From contig DWZQ01000034.1 in the NCBI GenBank assembly GCA_019117485.1, positions 1 through 51,676 of the forward strand: a stretch of DNA of 51,676 bases, in the 5' to 3' direction. Under the pieces are notes generated by a model. It did no database searches. It saw nothing but the letters and a program-made list of their open reading frames with translations, and was not told the DNA's origin. This document shows, in pieces, positions 7,932-35,096 of this stretch (position 1 is its first letter; each line of letters begins with the position of its first letter). The position numbers and the translations under genes were made by a program. Origin of the DNA: Candidatus Agathobaculum intestinipullorum. GTDB lineage: Bacteria; Bacillota; Clostridia; Oscillospirales; Butyricicoccaceae.

Positions 7932-8172
7932 ATGAAGCGGTTTGTAATTGGTATTGCTGCGGCTTTGATGGTGGGAGCCTTGTGCGGCTGCGATGCAAGT
8001 GTTTAGGAGGATGTTGCTAGGCTGGACATAGCGCCCGAGCCGGATAGCCTGCTGCGCGTATTTATGGCGTGGCAACCGTTAGACAAGCCGCTGGAGATTA
8101 CACCGCCAACCTTTGTGCCATTTGTGCGAGAAGGTTTCCGGTTGTCGAGTGGAGGGTACAAAAGTACCGTAA
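7932..8172 (+). pseudogene. Decayed small lipoprotein gene (nonsense plus frameshifts)
   Basis: ATG 7932 follows AGGAGG and encodes 24 residues, 'MKRFVIGIAAALMVGALCGC' plus DASV, a lipoprotein signal with lipobox LCGC, then TAG at 8004. The same frame continues as plausible protein ('EDVARLDIAPEPDSLLRVFM...FVREGF') to about 8138. Beyond that the sensible reading moves to another frame, giving VVEW (8141-8152), and then to a third, giving GTKVP and TAA at 8170. An intact ancestor would end 'EGFTVVEWGGTKVP', about 80 residues in total. One CAG-to-TAG change and two single-base indels explain this. I recall 'VVEWGG' tails on small Clostridia lipoproteins but cannot name a family. Promoter, ribosome site and terminator remain intact, so decay looks recent. 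Confidence 0.6.
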
Positions 8173-8180
8173 ACAAACAA

Positions 8181-8206
8181 AAAAAGCCCGCATCAGCGGG
8201 CTTTTT
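8181..8206 (+). terminator. Terminator after the lipoprotein pseudogene
   Basis: AAAAAGCCCGC pairs with GCGGGCTTTTT around ATCA. The symmetric A and T tracts allow use in both directions, so it can also end the minus-strand gene that stops at 8230. Confidence 0.85.
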
Positions 8207-8229: not shown

Positions 8230-9093
8230 TCAGTCCATGAAATAGGGGGCGACGGAAGGGACGGTTGCGATACGTTCGGCCGCGTCTGCAGAATCGCGCT
8301 TGAGCCGTGCAGCGCAGCGGCGGCAAAAGTCCTCGTAGAGCGCGGGTTCATCCCGCATTTGTTGCTTGAAGCCCCAGATATGGGTAAAATAGCCCTGCTG
8401 CGCGCCGGTGGACAGCGCTTCCAGATCGGATAGCGCGGCAGCACGGACGCCTTTTTGTGCAGCGCACATTGCAAGCAGCCGCTGCTCTGCAAAAACCATG
8501 TAGGTCAGCACATCATCCGCGTTGGGTGAGCAGCGAATAAAGCGGATGGACATATCGGTGTAGTATCGGCGAAATGCATTATCGGCCAAATAGCATAGCG
8601 CGGTGTTGAACGGCTGCACCGTCCAGTCAAGTGAGGTAAAATCAAAATCGTGCGTTTGGGTAAATGCCTGCGCGTCCGGATAGATGTCCGGCATGATATC
8701 TTCACGGTGGATGGCGGCAGCATCCAGACCGGCGAGCAATGGCTCCAAAGGCTTCCAGCAGATAAAATCCGTGTCGATCATCACGCAAGGGGACGGCATC
8801 GCGGACAGCGCGTACAGCTTGCCCGCCGCCCAGAATGCCATTGGATTAACGTCCTCTGGAATGGCATCGAGCAGTGGATGCACGCCCTCATCCCACAAAA
8901 AAGAAAGGCCGAGCGAGTCATAATACTGCTGGGCCTTTGTATCACAGATCATACGAATAGGGCCATTTTCCCGCCGCCATGCGAGTGCAGACAGCGCAGT
9001 GGTCAGAAGCTCAAACGGTTCTATCGCATAGGGGCGGTCAGAGGAGCGCGCGAAAAATGGGCGTGTCCAGTTGGAGTGAAACGCACGCAACAT
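8230..9093 (-). CDS. DUF6734-like putative glycosyltransferase
   Basis: This 287-residue protein has no signal peptide. The N-terminus ('MLRAFHSNWTRPFF') and the core 'FWAAGKLYALSAM...CVMIDTDFICWKPL' match my recollection of DUF6734 proteins, whose DxD (here DTD) suggests a GT-A-type, metal-dependent glycosyltransferase. The start at 9093 is supported by GGAG seven bases upstream. It overlaps the stop of the preceding gene by one base (TGATG), implying translational coupling. The natural guess is that it modifies the product of the coupled gene, whose Ser/Thr/Tyr-rich tail offers acceptors. That is inference; donor and acceptor are unknown. Confidence 0.6.
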   Translation of the reverse strand: MLRAFHSNWTRPFFARSSDRPYAIEPFELLTTALSALAWRRENGPIRMICDTKAQQYYDSLGLSFLWDEGVHPLLDAIPEDVNPMAFWAAGKLYALSAMPSPCVMIDTDFICWKPLEPLLAGLDAAAIHREDIMPDIYPDAQAFTQTHDFDFTSLDWTVQPFNTALCYLADNAFRRYYTDMSIRFIRCSPNADDVLTYMVFAEQRLLAMCAAQKGVRAAALSDLEALSTGAQQGYFTHIWGFKQQMRDEPALYEDFCRRCAARLKRDSADAAERIATVPSVAPYFMD

Positions 9094-9695
9094 CAAACCA
9101 GCTCCAATCCATAACCACCGACCAGGTAGGTACATGAACCAAATACATAGGAACCTGACCCGGAGGAAAGATAGATGGTGCGGTATGAGGTGGTATAGGA
9201 GGTCACATAGGAACCTGATCCAGACCCTGAACCAGTGTGTAAAAATACCGTACGCGTTACAGTGACCACATGCACGCCGTTTTCCAAGATTTCGACCGGC
9301 GGCAGCGCACCACCCATGATTGGAATAGGGGGTTGTCCGTCCTCTGCGGGATACCAGCCGTCCGGATAGGGATCGACTGCAAAAACGCCGGTCGGAGTCG
9401 GTTCATCGACTACAACCTCTTCCGGTTCCGGTTCGTCTGTGGTGGGAGGCTGCTTGTGCCGCGCGAAGCTATCCTCATCCATCGCTACGCCGTCAATTGC
9501 GTGGTAATGCGCCGGATCCATCGCCAAGATGCCCTCGGGGATGGGGATAGGTTTTGCGGGTACTTCCGGCTCAGGTTCAGGTGCCGGTTCAGCGGGCGCG
9601 CAGTGTTTTTCGTAACTGTCCAGATCGAATACAACACCGTCGATCTCACGGTAATTTTCTGGATCCATTGCCAGAATACCGTTTGGTTTAGACAT
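9093..9695 (-). CDS. Repeat protein with Pro/Glu linkers and a Gly-Ser-Tyr-rich tail (unknown)
   Basis: This 200-residue protein starts at ATG 9695 after AGGGGG. I do not recognise a family. It has two clear repeats of about 45 residues ('GILAMDPENYREIDGV' and 'GILAMDPAHYHAIDGV'), each followed by an acidic segment and a Pro/Glu-rich linker, and a degenerate third ('GVFAVDPYPDGWYP'). Residues about 150-200 are rich in Gly, Ser, Thr and Tyr ('GSGSGSGSYVTSYTTSY', 'SSGSGSYVFGS'). No signal peptide or membrane segment is visible. It is coupled to the DUF6734-like gene and divergent from an FkbM methyltransferase, so it may be a scaffold or substrate for modification, possibly surface-destined by an unknown route. 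Confidence 0.6.
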   Translation of the reverse strand: MSKPNGILAMDPENYREIDGVVFDLDSYEKHCAPAEPAPEPEPEVPAKPIPIPEGILAMDPAHYHAIDGVAMDEDSFARHKQPPTTDEPEPEEVVVDEPTPTGVFAVDPYPDGWYPAEDGQPPIPIMGGALPPVEILENGVHVVTVTRTVFLHTGSGSGSGSYVTSYTTSYRTIYLSSGSGSYVFGSCTYLVGGYGLELV

Positions 9696-9728
9696 GGCTG
9701 CGCCCCCTTGCATTGGAACTCTATTTTA

Positions 9729-9757
9729 ATTATACTGTACCGGGCGATAAACCGCAA
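9729..9757 (-). promoter_or_regulatory. Promoter for the repeat protein / DUF6734 operon
   Basis: On the minus strand TATAAT (9734-9729) is preceded at 17 bp by a weak -35, TTGCGG (9757-9752). The -10 context ACAGTATAAT is identical to that of the divergent promoter, suggesting shared control. Confidence 0.5.
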
Positions 9758-9791
9758 TGAGAAAATTACGCGGTGAAAAAGATTTTTCAAC

Positions 9792-9820
9792 TTTACAGAG
9801 ACCTGTACGCACAGTATAAT
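9792..9820 (+). promoter_or_regulatory. Promoter for the FkbM methyltransferase gene
   Basis: TTTACA (9792-9797) and TATAAT (9815-9820) are 17 bp apart, about 28 bp upstream of ATG 9849. The ten bases ACAGTATAAT are shared with the promoter reading the other way. Confidence 0.7.
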
Positions 9821-9848
9821 GATAGGCACGGAAAAAGGGGGTACATAC

Positions 9849-10916
9849 ATGGACTTTTGGACATTGGAGCGGTCGGTTTGGGCGGTACTGCGTGAAGAAA
9901 CCCGCCCGATTCTGCTTTACGGCATGGGGGACGGCGCGGATAAAATCCTTGCACAGTTCGACATATATGGTATCCGCGCGTCCGGCGTGTTTGCAAGCGA
10001 TGAATTTGTGCGTGGGCACAGCTTCCATGGGTTCCAGGTGCTCAAATTGTCCGAAGCGCTCGCGCAGTTTGGCGAGGATATTGTGATTGTGATCGCGTTT
10101 GCCAGCCAGCGTCCAGAGGTGCTGGACAAAATGTACACGCTTGATACAAATTATACGGTATACGCACCCGATGTACCGGTTGTACCCGGCCCTGTTTTTG
10201 ATGAAGCGTTTGTCCAGAGCCAAGCGGATGAAATGCAGGCTGCGTTTGACCTGCTGGCTGATGAGCAGTCACGCCGGGTGTTTCTTGATACGGTGCGGTT
10301 TAAGCTGTCCGGAAAATTGCAGTATCTACGTACAAGTGAAACCGATAAAGACGAGGCATTTCACTCCATCCTGCGTCCGACTCATACAGAACATTTTGCT
10401 GATCTAGGCGCGTATACCGGTGACACCATTCGTGAGTTGCTGCACTATACGGATGGTGCATTTGCGTCAGTCACTGCGCTGGAGCCGGATCGGCGCAGCT
10501 TCCGCAAGTTGACTGGCTACGCGCAAACACTTGTGGGTGCGATCCGATGCGAACAGGCGGGGGCATGGTCGTGCGATACCGTATTACGTTTTTCCGATCA
10601 GGCTGGGCGGCAGTCGCGTGTGTCGGGACAGGGCAAGGAGACGCAGATGCGTGCGCTTGATAGCGTGTTGGACGGTGCTCCCTGCACTTATCTGAAAATG
10701 GATGTGGAGGGTGCGGAGTATGAGGCACTGCAAGGTGCGGAGCAGACCATACGGCAGCACCGTCCGAAGCTCAACCTTGCTGCCTACCATCGCAGCGCAG
10801 ATTTTTTTGCGCTGCCGTTAGCGGTGCATGCGCTCTGTTCGGATTACCGGCTATATCTGCGACACCATCCTTATGTGCCGGCGTGGGACACCAATTTGTA
10901 TGCGGTTTGTCCGTAA
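9849..10916 (+). CDS. FkbM-family SAM-dependent methyltransferase with an N-terminal Rossmann-like domain
   Basis: This 355-residue protein starts at ATG 9849 after AGGGGG. Residues 18-100 ('PILLYGMGDGADKILAQFDIYGI') look like a nucleotide-binding Rossmann domain of the kind often fused to sugar-modifying enzymes. The C-terminal half is the FkbM methyltransferase: 'HFADLGAYTGDTIREL' (SAM motif I), 'VTALEPDRRSFRKL' (motif II) and 'YLKMDVEGAEYEALQGAE'. FkbM enzymes O-methylate hydroxyls on glycans or secondary metabolites. It is divergent from the repeat protein and DUF6734 genes with near-identical -10 boxes. The actual substrate is unknown. Confidence 0.8.
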   Translation: MDFWTLERSVWAVLREETRPILLYGMGDGADKILAQFDIYGIRASGVFASDEFVRGHSFHGFQVLKLSEALAQFGEDIVIVIAFASQRPEVLDKMYTLDTNYTVYAPDVPVVPGPVFDEAFVQSQADEMQAAFDLLADEQSRRVFLDTVRFKLSGKLQYLRTSETDKDEAFHSILRPTHTEHFADLGAYTGDTIRELLHYTDGAFASVTALEPDRRSFRKLTGYAQTLVGAIRCEQAGAWSCDTVLRFSDQAGRQSRVSGQGKETQMRALDSVLDGAPCTYLKMDVEGAEYEALQGAEQTIRQHRPKLNLAAYHRSADFFALPLAVHALCSDYRLYLRHHPYVPAWDTNLYAVCP

Positions 10917-33620: not shown

Positions 33621-35096
33621 TTGGATCATCAAATTTATAACCAGATCAGCGCCCGCACGGGCGGCGATATCTATATCGGCGTGGTCGGGCCGGTGCGCAC
33701 GGGCAAATCCACGCTGATTAAACGGTTCATGGAAACCATGGTGTTACCCGGCATGGATAACATGTATAAACGCGAGCGGGCGCGTGACGAATTGCCGCAG
33801 TCGGGGGCGGGCCGGACGATCATGACCGCGGAACCCAAATTTGTACCCGAAGAAGCAGCGGAAATCACGCTGCCCGAGGGCGGTGTGTGCCGTATCCGGC
33901 TTGTCGACTGCGTCGGTTATCTGGTTGAAGGATCGCTGGGTGGCACCGAAGACGATAAGCCTCGTATGGTGTCGACCCCATGGCGCGAGGAACCGATGAC
34001 ATTGGCGGAAGCAGCGGAAACCGGCACCAATAAGGTGATCGGTGAACACTCGACCATTGGGCTGGTCGTTACAACAGACGGCAGTTTCACCGAAATTCCA
34101 CGGGAAAACTATCTGCCAGCAGAACAACGTGTTATTGAGGAGTTACGCGCGCTGGGTAAACCGTTCCTCGTGCTGGTTAACTCGGCTGAGCCAGAAGGGG
34201 AGGCCGCAAAGGCCGTCTGTGACATGCTGCGTGGGCAGTATCAGGTTGAACCGGTCGCGGTCAATTGTATGGAGCTGACCGAAACTGGCATCGCGGATAT
34301 CCTGCGGCGTGTACTGTATGAATTTCCGATTTGTGAGATGTCTTTTGTCCTGCCGCGATATATCGGAGCACTTGCACCGCAACACAAGGTGCAGCAGAGC
34401 ATCTATCAGTCCGTGCGCACTGCTGCACAATGCGGTACAAAGATGCGTGATATTAAGGATATTTGCCAAAAGATCAGCGAGAACGAGTATATCGGCAGGG
34501 TAGACATCGACCAACTTGCGCTAGGCACTGGAGCCGCGCATATCCGCGTTGAGATACCGGAGCAGGTATTTTACAGTATTGTCGCCGAGCAGACTGATAT
34601 TCAGGTGCGTGACGCTGCTGATTTGATCGGCGTACTGGGGGAATTCGCCAATATCCGGCGGCGGTATGAAAAGCTGCGCGGTGCGCTCGATCAGGTTTAC
34701 CAGACCGGTTATGGTGTGGTTATGCCCACGGTTGACGAGTTGACGCTCGAAGCGCCTGAGATTGTGCGGCAAGGTGGGCGGTACGGCGTGCGGCTTCGTG
34801 CATCAGCGCCATCCATCCATATGATGCGCGCCAATATCAAGGCGGAGGTCAACCCAATCGTCGGCACGGAAAAGCAGTCTGAAGAGCTGGTGCATTACCT
34901 GCTTAGCGAGTTTGAGGAACAGCCGGAGAAGATTTGGGAGACCAACATATTTGGAAAGTCGCTCAATGAGCTGGTGCGCGAGGAACTGTCACATAAGCTC
35001 AGCCGTATGCCGGACGATGCACGCGGCAAGATTCGTGAAACGCTTGAGAAGATCATCAACGAAAGCGCAGGCGGATTGATCTGCATCATTTTATAA
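33621..35096 (+). CDS. spoIVA: Stage IV sporulation protein A, coat basement ATPase
   Basis: SpoIVA polymerises on the forespore surface using ATP and forms the platform for the coat. The 491-residue protein, close to the usual 492, starts at TTG 33621 after AAAGGCGGGG. It has the P-loop 'GVVGPVRTGKSTLIKRFM', 'VDCVGYLVEGSLGG', and a conserved C-terminus ending 'GGLICIIL' that is needed for localisation in the family. It lies 14 bp after the sipL-like gene, so they are one operon. Confidence 0.96.
   Translation: MDHQIYNQISARTGGDIYIGVVGPVRTGKSTLIKRFMETMVLPGMDNMYKRERARDELPQSGAGRTIMTAEPKFVPEEAAEITLPEGGVCRIRLVDCVGYLVEGSLGGTEDDKPRMVSTPWREEPMTLAEAAETGTNKVIGEHSTIGLVVTTDGSFTEIPRENYLPAEQRVIEELRALGKPFLVLVNSAEPEGEAAKAVCDMLRGQYQVEPVAVNCMELTETGIADILRRVLYEFPICEMSFVLPRYIGALAPQHKVQQSIYQSVRTAAQCGTKMRDIKDICQKISENEYIGRVDIDQLALGTGAAHIRVEIPEQVFYSIVAEQTDIQVRDAADLIGVLGEFANIRRRYEKLRGALDQVYQTGYGVVMPTVDELTLEAPEIVRQGGRYGVRLRASAPSIHMMRANIKAEVNPIVGTEKQSEELVHYLLSEFEEQPEKIWETNIFGKSLNELVREELSHKLSRMPDDARGKIRETLEKIINESAGGLICIIL

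Follow-up and report, generated by a model that had tools for sequence, protein, structure and literature searches.

The 51,676-nucleotide stretch of contig DWZQ01000034.1 from Candidatus Agathobaculum intestinipullorum that we have analysed (the whole of which is called the window hereafter) carries on its reverse strand two overlapping genes, one for a repeat protein that ends in the short sequence GYGLELV and one for an enzyme of the DUF6734 superfamily. Comparison across genomes shows that the DUF6734-superfamily enzyme and the tagged protein with its repetitive tail form a pair that is conserved, closely linked and matched one to one. The reading that we favour, and which we hold with moderate confidence, is that of a two-gene unit of one enzyme and one substrate, in which a cytoplasmic glycosyltransferase would recognise the C-terminal sequence of its partner (here called the tag) and glycosylate serine and threonine residues of the adjoining tail, the FkbM-family methyltransferase encoded next to the pair not being an obligatory component. 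The initial annotation of this DNA had proposed a protein-modifying cassette made of all three genes; from this proposal the repeat protein and the transferase emerge strongly supported as a dedicated pair (50 of 50 genomes), whereas the FkbM protein as a third member is left unsupported.

The three open reading frames (ORFs) are all present in the window, and the description of the first product as a protein with internal repeats and a tail rich in Gly, Ser, Thr and Tyr is borne out, as it comprises two copies of the unit GILAMDPxxYxxIDGVxxDxxSxxxH and a degenerate third one, followed by the tail. The listed ORFs place this partner protein at 9093-9713 on the reverse strand and open the enzyme at 9135. 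Comparison with relatives puts the partner start at ATG 9695, and the conserved sequence of the enzyme starts only at the internal ATG 9093, from which it follows that the partner stop and the enzyme start read TGATG, with one base in common. The one-base overlap of the two genes, as initially described, is thus confirmed; the distance of 135 bp to the FkbM gene given at the same time holds for the longest partner ORF, but becomes 153 bp when the conserved start is used.

We have examined the distribution of the pair in the 87 genomes of the window's family and in draws of 394 genomes from the order and 398 from the phylum (genomes, loci and genera are denoted G, L and g). Within the family the enzyme occurs in 50 of the 87 genomes, and inspection of every enzyme gene, those of genus g3 included, places the partner directly upstream in all 50; contig edges cut the partner of G038 (L097) and the start of that of G041 (L099). 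The junction ranges from a 3-nucleotide gap to a 4-nucleotide overlap, the overlap of one base being the commonest (33 of 50, G034 counted), so that the exact junction drifts while the coupling appears to be maintained. An exact expression for the tag recovered 49 of the 50 partners, and that of G034, which ends GYGIDLI, was added by separate inspection. A pairwise search retrieved the repeat protein in 43 family genomes, only two of those in g3 being found in this way. Repeat homologues occurring usually without the enzyme, the outcome that had been named beforehand as speaking against the proposal, were not seen, as 42 of the 43 repeat-positive genomes carry the enzyme and in the sole exception, G025, the contig ends inside the repeat gene.

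Outside the family, the enzyme profile detected 16 further carriers among the 394 order genomes, 15 of them in a second family and one (G153) in a third. All 15 second-family loci have a tagged partner by the enzyme, in 13 without an intervening gene and in two with the gene of a DUF6709 membrane protein in between. This membrane protein, assigned by Pfam and located in genus g137 at 9445-10086 of L164 and 8206-8871 of L166, may link the system to the membrane. The G153 locus has a 120-residue ORF just downstream of the enzyme, with GSR/GSQ repeats and an internal LGYGLGLI, and G812, a genome of another class first met through the DUF6734 model, has a 350-residue ORF just upstream of the enzyme, ending SGSGFGGYGLELIDAR and without a Pfam match. 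In the latter locus (L209) a transposase gene at 129-1118, presumably IS30-like, is convergent with the shortened enzyme gene (248 residues) and overlaps its end, which suggests truncation or mobility of the pair. Searches of plasmids by tblastn, with the window enzyme and with a second-family partner, gave no match.

The tag is the element that is kept while the N-terminus, the type of repeat and the number of repeats change. The last seven residues of the family partners follow GYG[LI]x[LI][IV] apart from isolated deviations, G045 for example having Phe in place of Tyr, and second-family partners mostly end in ...LNRYGYGIHLI or close variants (L171 without LNR, two ending in GYGIHNI); in the distant genomes G153 and G812 the tag falls short of the very end. 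We have determined how often such an ending arises among the 2997 ORFs of at least 80 residues in 67 loci: 64 end in the tag (x-N-I being allowed), and these are spread singly over 64 loci. Of the three loci left, one is L097, cut by the contig edge, and the two others belong to G153 and G812, whose ORFs alone have the tag in an internal position. At the DNA level, a genome-wide pattern for the tag plus stop codon matched the pair junction in every one of 32 family genomes, G049 giving one additional, stray match, and the reversed pattern used as control matched in 0 of 32. In a second genome set the pattern matched 13 of 17, every time at the junction (control 1 of 17), the four others being G153 and G812, with the tag away from the stop, and G316 and G359, with GYGIHNI ends. 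These results indicate that there is essentially one such tagged protein in each of the genomes searched, beside the enzyme. The tag codons vary synonymously, all four Gly codons being used while G-Y-G is kept, which indicates that the constraint acts on the protein. In 39 of 49 family genes the tag-coding GGATTGGAG resembles the ribosome site of the enzyme (Shine-Dalgarno-like); this overlap is found in 0 of 15 second-family genes, where the tag is retained, and an origin of the tag as a mere by-product of the ribosome site was therefore rejected.

A distinct picture emerges from the remainder of the partner. The N-terminal unit of the family approximates IL.MDPxxYrEiDGVvfDxdSYakH, is doubled in part of the window's genus and is strongly diverged in g3, and the second family has a different N-terminus (CLWINGVKV...RGYYLGGSLIPWL and similar). 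Family tails range from TSYTTSYRTSY through SYLTSYLTSYLTSY to long SGSYRLTSGSFR arrays, those of the second family consisting of G-S-[FY] repeats. The aromatic residues of 64 homologous tails amount to 418 Tyr, 340 Phe and 67 Trp, Ser preceding 455 of these 825; some tails are devoid of SY (L159 has 0 SY versus 16 SF), and the repeats of G153 contain no aromatic residue. Every tail type contains Ser, whereas Phe or Trp freely takes the place of Tyr; Ser (together with Thr) is therefore more probably the acceptor, and Tyr as an essential acceptor was rejected. Most second-family partners (L156-L170), as well as L094 and L100 of g3, also have an acidic-aromatic patch (YEYEYE, HEYEFE, YEWEWE) in mid-tail. 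Among repeat models, Pentapeptide_2 (Pfam) is over its cut-off for L160 and TIGR03057 (NCBIfam) for L098, for which an ice-binding beta-roll model of Pfam is also found, below its cut-off; these matches tell that the tails are repetitive, and nothing further. The structure model of the repeat protein reached a predicted local distance difference test score (pLDDT) of 45 and a predicted template modelling score (pTM) of 0.20. By eye the partner has no obvious signal peptide. Complete family partners measure 133-299 residues and lack a Cys-rich core, which sets them apart from the short precursors with leader and Cys-rich core of glycocins and other ribosomally synthesised and post-translationally modified peptides (RiPPs).

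In respect to the enzyme, DUF6734 (PF20508) alone among Pfam families matches each of the 35 aligned relatives, with a best E value of 1.6e-14, other families matching at most two of them, weakly. The window enzyme itself scores below the curated cut-off (E=5.8e-5, 23.1 bits, cut-off 27) and its relatives in G047 and G812 pass it in the genome search, which marks the window enzyme as a divergent relative of DUF6734, with 18-20% identity to the L208 protein and to two Bacteroidota plasmid proteins. An NCBIfam scan of the enzyme gave no match. Residues invariant in 30 diverse pair enzymes include D107, D109, H129, E131, N163-T164-A165, E203-Q204-R205, H238, W240, G241 and K243, and D107, D109, E131, E203, Q204 and H238 are still invariant in 10 sequences that comprise the true DUF6734 proteins of L208, L259 and L260 and one viral-contig relative. 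The enzyme thus shares the conserved residues of the superfamily and has, as looked for in glycosyltransferases of the GT-A type, a DxD motif in a conserved context. DxD and similar conserved residues are typical of active nucleotide-sugar enzymes, and the order DxD, N-x-A, acidic-Gln, H-x-x-G-x-K of the pair enzymes resembles what we take to be that of GT8 enzymes.

We have also considered the genes that accompany DUF6734 proteins elsewhere. On the Emticicia plasmid NC_018749.1 the DUF6734 gene is followed by genes for a VKOR-thioredoxin protein, a 63-residue Ser/Thr/Cys-rich peptide and TlpA, a lantibiotic dehydratase and a LanC-like protein being encoded a few kilobases upstream; the peptide gene (L259, 7327-7518) marks a putative RiPP locus that includes an unassigned enzyme. 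The Hymenobacter plasmid NZ_CP053909.1 has, between VKOR and DUF6734, an unannotated 64-residue ORF (L260, 3718-3912) with a LSREQMRQVKGG leader of the GG type and a Cys-rich remainder, likely a bacteriocin precursor. The third true DUF6734 protein, of L208, adjoins a tail-spike-like ORF, and had no tblastn match in phages; two remote relatives, without the tag, are found in viral contigs. In glycocin loci, glycosyltransferases such as SunS and ThuS accompany modified peptides, and by analogy the plasmid loci, two in number, suggest that the DUF6734 superfamily elsewhere accompanies small ribosomal peptides of the modified kind.

The expression of the pair was analysed from its upstream regions. 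The sequence ACAGTATAAT occurs exactly twice in the window, once on each side of the intergenic region, where 0.05 occurrences are expected, and this had been interpreted as a shared -10 context pointing to joint expression of the pair and the FkbM gene. The double occurrence stands, but it is not conserved: on the partner side it is found in 19 of 24 genus loci and 0 of 26 loci of other genera, and on the FkbM side 3 of the 24 loci of the genus have it, or 3 of 50 for the family as a whole (within 200 nucleotides, the FkbM gene lying further off in some loci). Although both sides have promoters, the rarity of ACAGTATAAT on the FkbM side means that the ten shared bases are no conserved link, and a joint promoter was rejected as evidence for the cassette. 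Using the sigma-A consensus, a TTGnnn-N16..18-TATAAT site was found at most 200 nucleotides upstream of the partner start in 44 of the 48 family loci having upstream sequence (23 of 24 in the window's genus, 5 of 8 in g3 and 16 of 16 in g2, g4, g5 and g7), which points to vegetative expression.

In the two-gene unit that we favour, a single sigma-A-type promoter precedes the acceptor and enzyme genes, which together with the overlapping stop and start means that the two proteins should be made together. The enzyme, with its conserved DxD, would then act as a cytoplasmic GT-A glycosyltransferase using a nucleotide sugar; the acceptor would be recognised, as its conservation suggests, through the tag GYG[LI]x[LI][IV], and Ser, probably also Thr, of the adjacent G-S-rich tail would be glycosylated. 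Glycosylation of the tail guided by the tag is what we infer from comparing the sequences.

The neighbours of the pair in the second family, identified by a Pfam scan of one member of each neighbour group, add a further element. In 11 of the 15 loci the partner is preceded, on its own strand, by HlyD-like and FtsX/MacB-like genes; a PP-loop ATPase gene precedes it in 12, and a wall-peptidase gene (M23/G5/LysM) is found downstream in 7. The HlyD/FtsX-type genes are set apart from the partner by the PP-loop gene and in some loci also by a poly(A)-polymerase-like gene. The conserved HlyD-like, FtsX/MacB-like and PP-loop genes before the partner are found in L158-L163, L165, L167, L169 and L170 and may represent a link to export or to the wall.

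A number of observations weigh against tag-guided glycosylation. Pfam gives the enzyme only an unnamed family, for which, as stated, the window protein scores below cut-off, and PDB profile searches with the enzyme found no glycosyltransferase. The enzyme model, for which 16 close relatives were used, is of low quality (mean pLDDT 57, pTM 0.58), and its top Foldseek matches, glycogenin-2, glycogenin-1 and UGGT, are weak (E 0.017-0.045, none below 0.001), the fold match being a hint, not a test. The enzyme clade is also rare, as a phylum-wide profile search found it in 3 of 398 genomes (that of the window, G047 and G812). As to the tag, the loci that contain true DUF6734 genes or viral relatives (L208, L257-L261) showed none, which makes it a feature of the clostridial clade only; within the family its codons overlap the ribosome site of the enzyme, which explains part of the nucleotide conservation; and it could serve assembly, export or stability rather than recognition by the enzyme. 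The candidate partner of G153 has a reversed gene order and an internal tag, was missed by the two first scans and was seen only on reading all ORFs; being overlapped by other ORFs it is not a proven gene and counts less. The G812 partner lacks a long repeat tail. Lastly, the exporter-like neighbours in the second family leave room for an export or surface role of the partner.

Among the other explanations, the three-part cassette, in which the transferase would glycosylate the repeat protein and the FkbM protein cap the sugar by methylation, was analysed from the distribution of the FkbM gene. Its product is a clear member of that family (PF05050, E=1.1e-13, 52.1 bits, cut-off 22.7; TIGR01444, 53 bits, cut-off 37.7). 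The gene is present in 49 of the 50 enzyme-positive family genomes (the match list includes fragments at contig ends, as in G055) and lies on the pair's contig within about 4 kb in 38 of them, it is present in 15 of 15 enzyme-positive second-family genomes, and 17 of the 18 aligned loci of the genus keep a plain TATAAT on its own side, all of which would fit a cassette. However, in the 12 remaining family genomes there is a likely contig break (G019), the gene is not adjacent (G028), or, in the ten of g3, it is on the pair's contig in 0 of 10, two of these contigs beginning within the partner; it is never next to the pair in the second family, where linkage is not tight, and it is absent from G153. 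Order-wide (E<=1e-40) 177 of the 394 genomes carry FkbM, among them 44 of the 46 that have the enzyme and 133 of the 348 that lack it, an association that is positive but far from exclusive; the family is common in the order whether or not the pair is present. The surroundings of FkbM were scanned in 36 loci, 20 of which belong to genera and families without the enzyme, and contained no tagged ORF; neighbour clustering shows the FkbM adjacency in the family to belong to a longer conserved gene order, whose other members we take, partly from sequence, to be HIT-like, M50-type peptidase and ScpA/ScpB genes. Enzyme, partner and FkbM being found together and not apart, as a three-gene cassette implies, is not what these genomes display. 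FkbM as an obligatory part was rejected on account of the 133 enzyme-negative carriers and the lack of linkage in g3; it is a neighbour, probably a separate common gene, the positive association leaving room for what may be a later, non-exclusive role. We thus give the cassette little credence.

An alternative which we regard as unlikely is that of a RiPP-like or export system, kin to glycocin-type loci, in which the N-terminus would be a leader and the G-S-Y tail a modified core, perhaps released and exported. The short precursor-like peptides and VKOR near true DUF6734 genes, with the lantibiotic dehydratase and LanC-like protein of Emticicia, are in line with it, as are the HlyD-like and FtsX/MacB-like genes of the second family; yet these are separated from the partner by other genes, neighbour clustering in the window's family revealed no conserved HlyD/FtsX/PP-loop/M23-type set, inspection of the partners by eye showed no recognisable leader cleavage site, and the length of complete family partners argues against it. 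A role for the enzyme as a non-glycosyl GT-A-like transferase, or simply as a chaperone or assembly partner of the repeat protein, would agree with the fact that Pfam, NCBIfam and PDB profile searches match it to no named glycosyltransferase, but the retention of DxD and other conserved residues across the superfamily makes this rather improbable. A spore coat or exosporium protein with its own glycosyltransferase is very improbable: SpoIVA is encoded in 69 of the 87 family genomes and in the window (33627-34328, pointing to at least part of a sporulation gene set in the organism), the partner has no signal peptide evident by eye, and CATA-type words upstream in 17 of 34 chosen loci give a very loose hint of a sporulation promoter, but against this stand the sigma-A-type sites before the partner and the fact that the presence of SpoIVA does not follow that of the pair (44 of 50 genomes having the enzyme versus 25 of 37 lacking it), on which ground a spore role by co-occurrence was rejected. 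Hardly probable at all, in our view, is a glycogenin-like primer, with the enzyme glucosylating tail Tyr residues to prime a storage polysaccharide. The top Foldseek matches and the many Tyr-rich tails suggest it, but the fold match is weak and the model poor, Phe replaces Tyr in several tails, L159 among them, and the partners of G153 and G812 have no Tyr repeats.

The tag-guided pair that we favour was compared with known systems. It shares with DUF6734 proteins the superfamily's conserved residues, and differs from them in its low identity and in having the tag, seen only with the clostridial clade. Serine-rich repeat adhesins (GtfA/GtfB, accessory Sec) likewise undergo dedicated intracellular glycosylation of Ser/Thr repeats in the partner, whereas the pair has one enzyme of another family, an acceptor of about 130-300 residues and a C-terminal candidate recognition element; no accessory Sec or GtfA/GtfB gene was noted among the clustered neighbours of the pair, no search by name having been made. 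Glycocins also have a dedicated glycosyltransferase beside a ribosomally made acceptor, and the Bacteroidota DUF6734 loci are similar to them in their Cys-rich peptide and VKOR; in contrast, the clostridial acceptor is a longer repeat protein that lacks a Cys-rich core, and neither a VKOR nor a thioredoxin gene was noted in the conserved surroundings of clostridial pairs. With glycogenin and GT8 enzymes the pair would share a GT-A type fold, suggested by the weak fold match only, and acceptor tails often rich in Tyr, but its acceptor is a separate protein in which Tyr is not conserved.

A literature search found no paper using the word DUF6734 and, in the text portions available, none on this pair or on a protein glycosylation system in Agathobaculum or Butyricicoccus; the accessible part of PMC12645811 names no such system. 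The pair, in a group of bacteria whose nearest named carriers live in the gut, suggests a system, so far undescribed, for decorating a single dedicated protein, and gives the uncharacterised domain family DUF6734 a testable function. More tentatively, and as a possibility that we would not yet call probable, DUF6734 could be a peptide- and protein-glycosylating superfamily, with a clostridial branch acting as a tag-guided modifier, in which the transferable end tag GYG[LI]x[LI][IV] would mark one protein per genome for glycosylation of a fast-changing G-S-rich tail, and a Bacteroidota branch that makes glycocin-like bacteriocins by means of a glycosyltransferase family as yet unrecorded in that context. 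The candidate short tag may direct the glycosyltransferase to any fused protein, and would be a practical tool if it works alone, and a new family of bacteriocin-modifying enzymes may be represented at the two Bacteroidota loci.

Table 1. Positions in the window of the pair, its proposed elements and the adjoining features.
Feature	Position	Strand	Remarks
Repeat/G-S-Y protein, putative acceptor	9093..9695	-	200 residues; start set by conservation of MSKPNGIL... among relatives; longest ORF from 9713
N-terminal repeat 1, GILAMDPENYREIDGVVFDLDSYEKHC	9600..9680	-	Related single-copy forms across the family
N-terminal repeat 2, GILAMDPAHYHAIDGVAMDEDSFARH	9456..9533	-	Second copy in part of the window's genus
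Degenerate third unit, GVFAVDPYPDGWYPAEDG	9336..9389	-	VFxxxPxHxGWY-like in several other genera
G/S/T/Y tail, TGSGSGSGSYVTSYTTSYRTIYLSSGSGSYVFGSCTYLV	9120..9236	-	Proposed glycosylation region
C-terminal tag GYGLELV (consensus GYG[LI]x[LI][IV])	9096..9116	-	Proposed recognition element
TGATG stop/start overlap of the pair	9091..9095	-	Putative translational coupling
DUF6734-superfamily enzyme, putative GT-A glycosyltransferase	8230..9093	-	287 residues
DTD (DxD) motif	8767..8775	-	Enzyme residues 107-109; both Asp invariant also in comparison with true DUF6734 proteins
Pair promoter TTGCGG-N17-TATAAT	9729..9757	-	
Intrinsic terminator-like hairpin	8181..8206	-	Downstream of the pair
FkbM-side promoter-like site TTTACA-N17-TATAAT	9792..9820	+	Neighbour, outside the pair
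FkbM-family methyltransferase	9849..10916	+	355 residues; frequent neighbour, membership in the system not supported

In the same region of the window, a tiny ORF MKRFVIGIAAALMVGALCGCDASV at 7932-8006 on the forward strand has a lipobox-like LCGC with a stop codon directly after it, and may correspond to a short lipopeptide or to a remnant.

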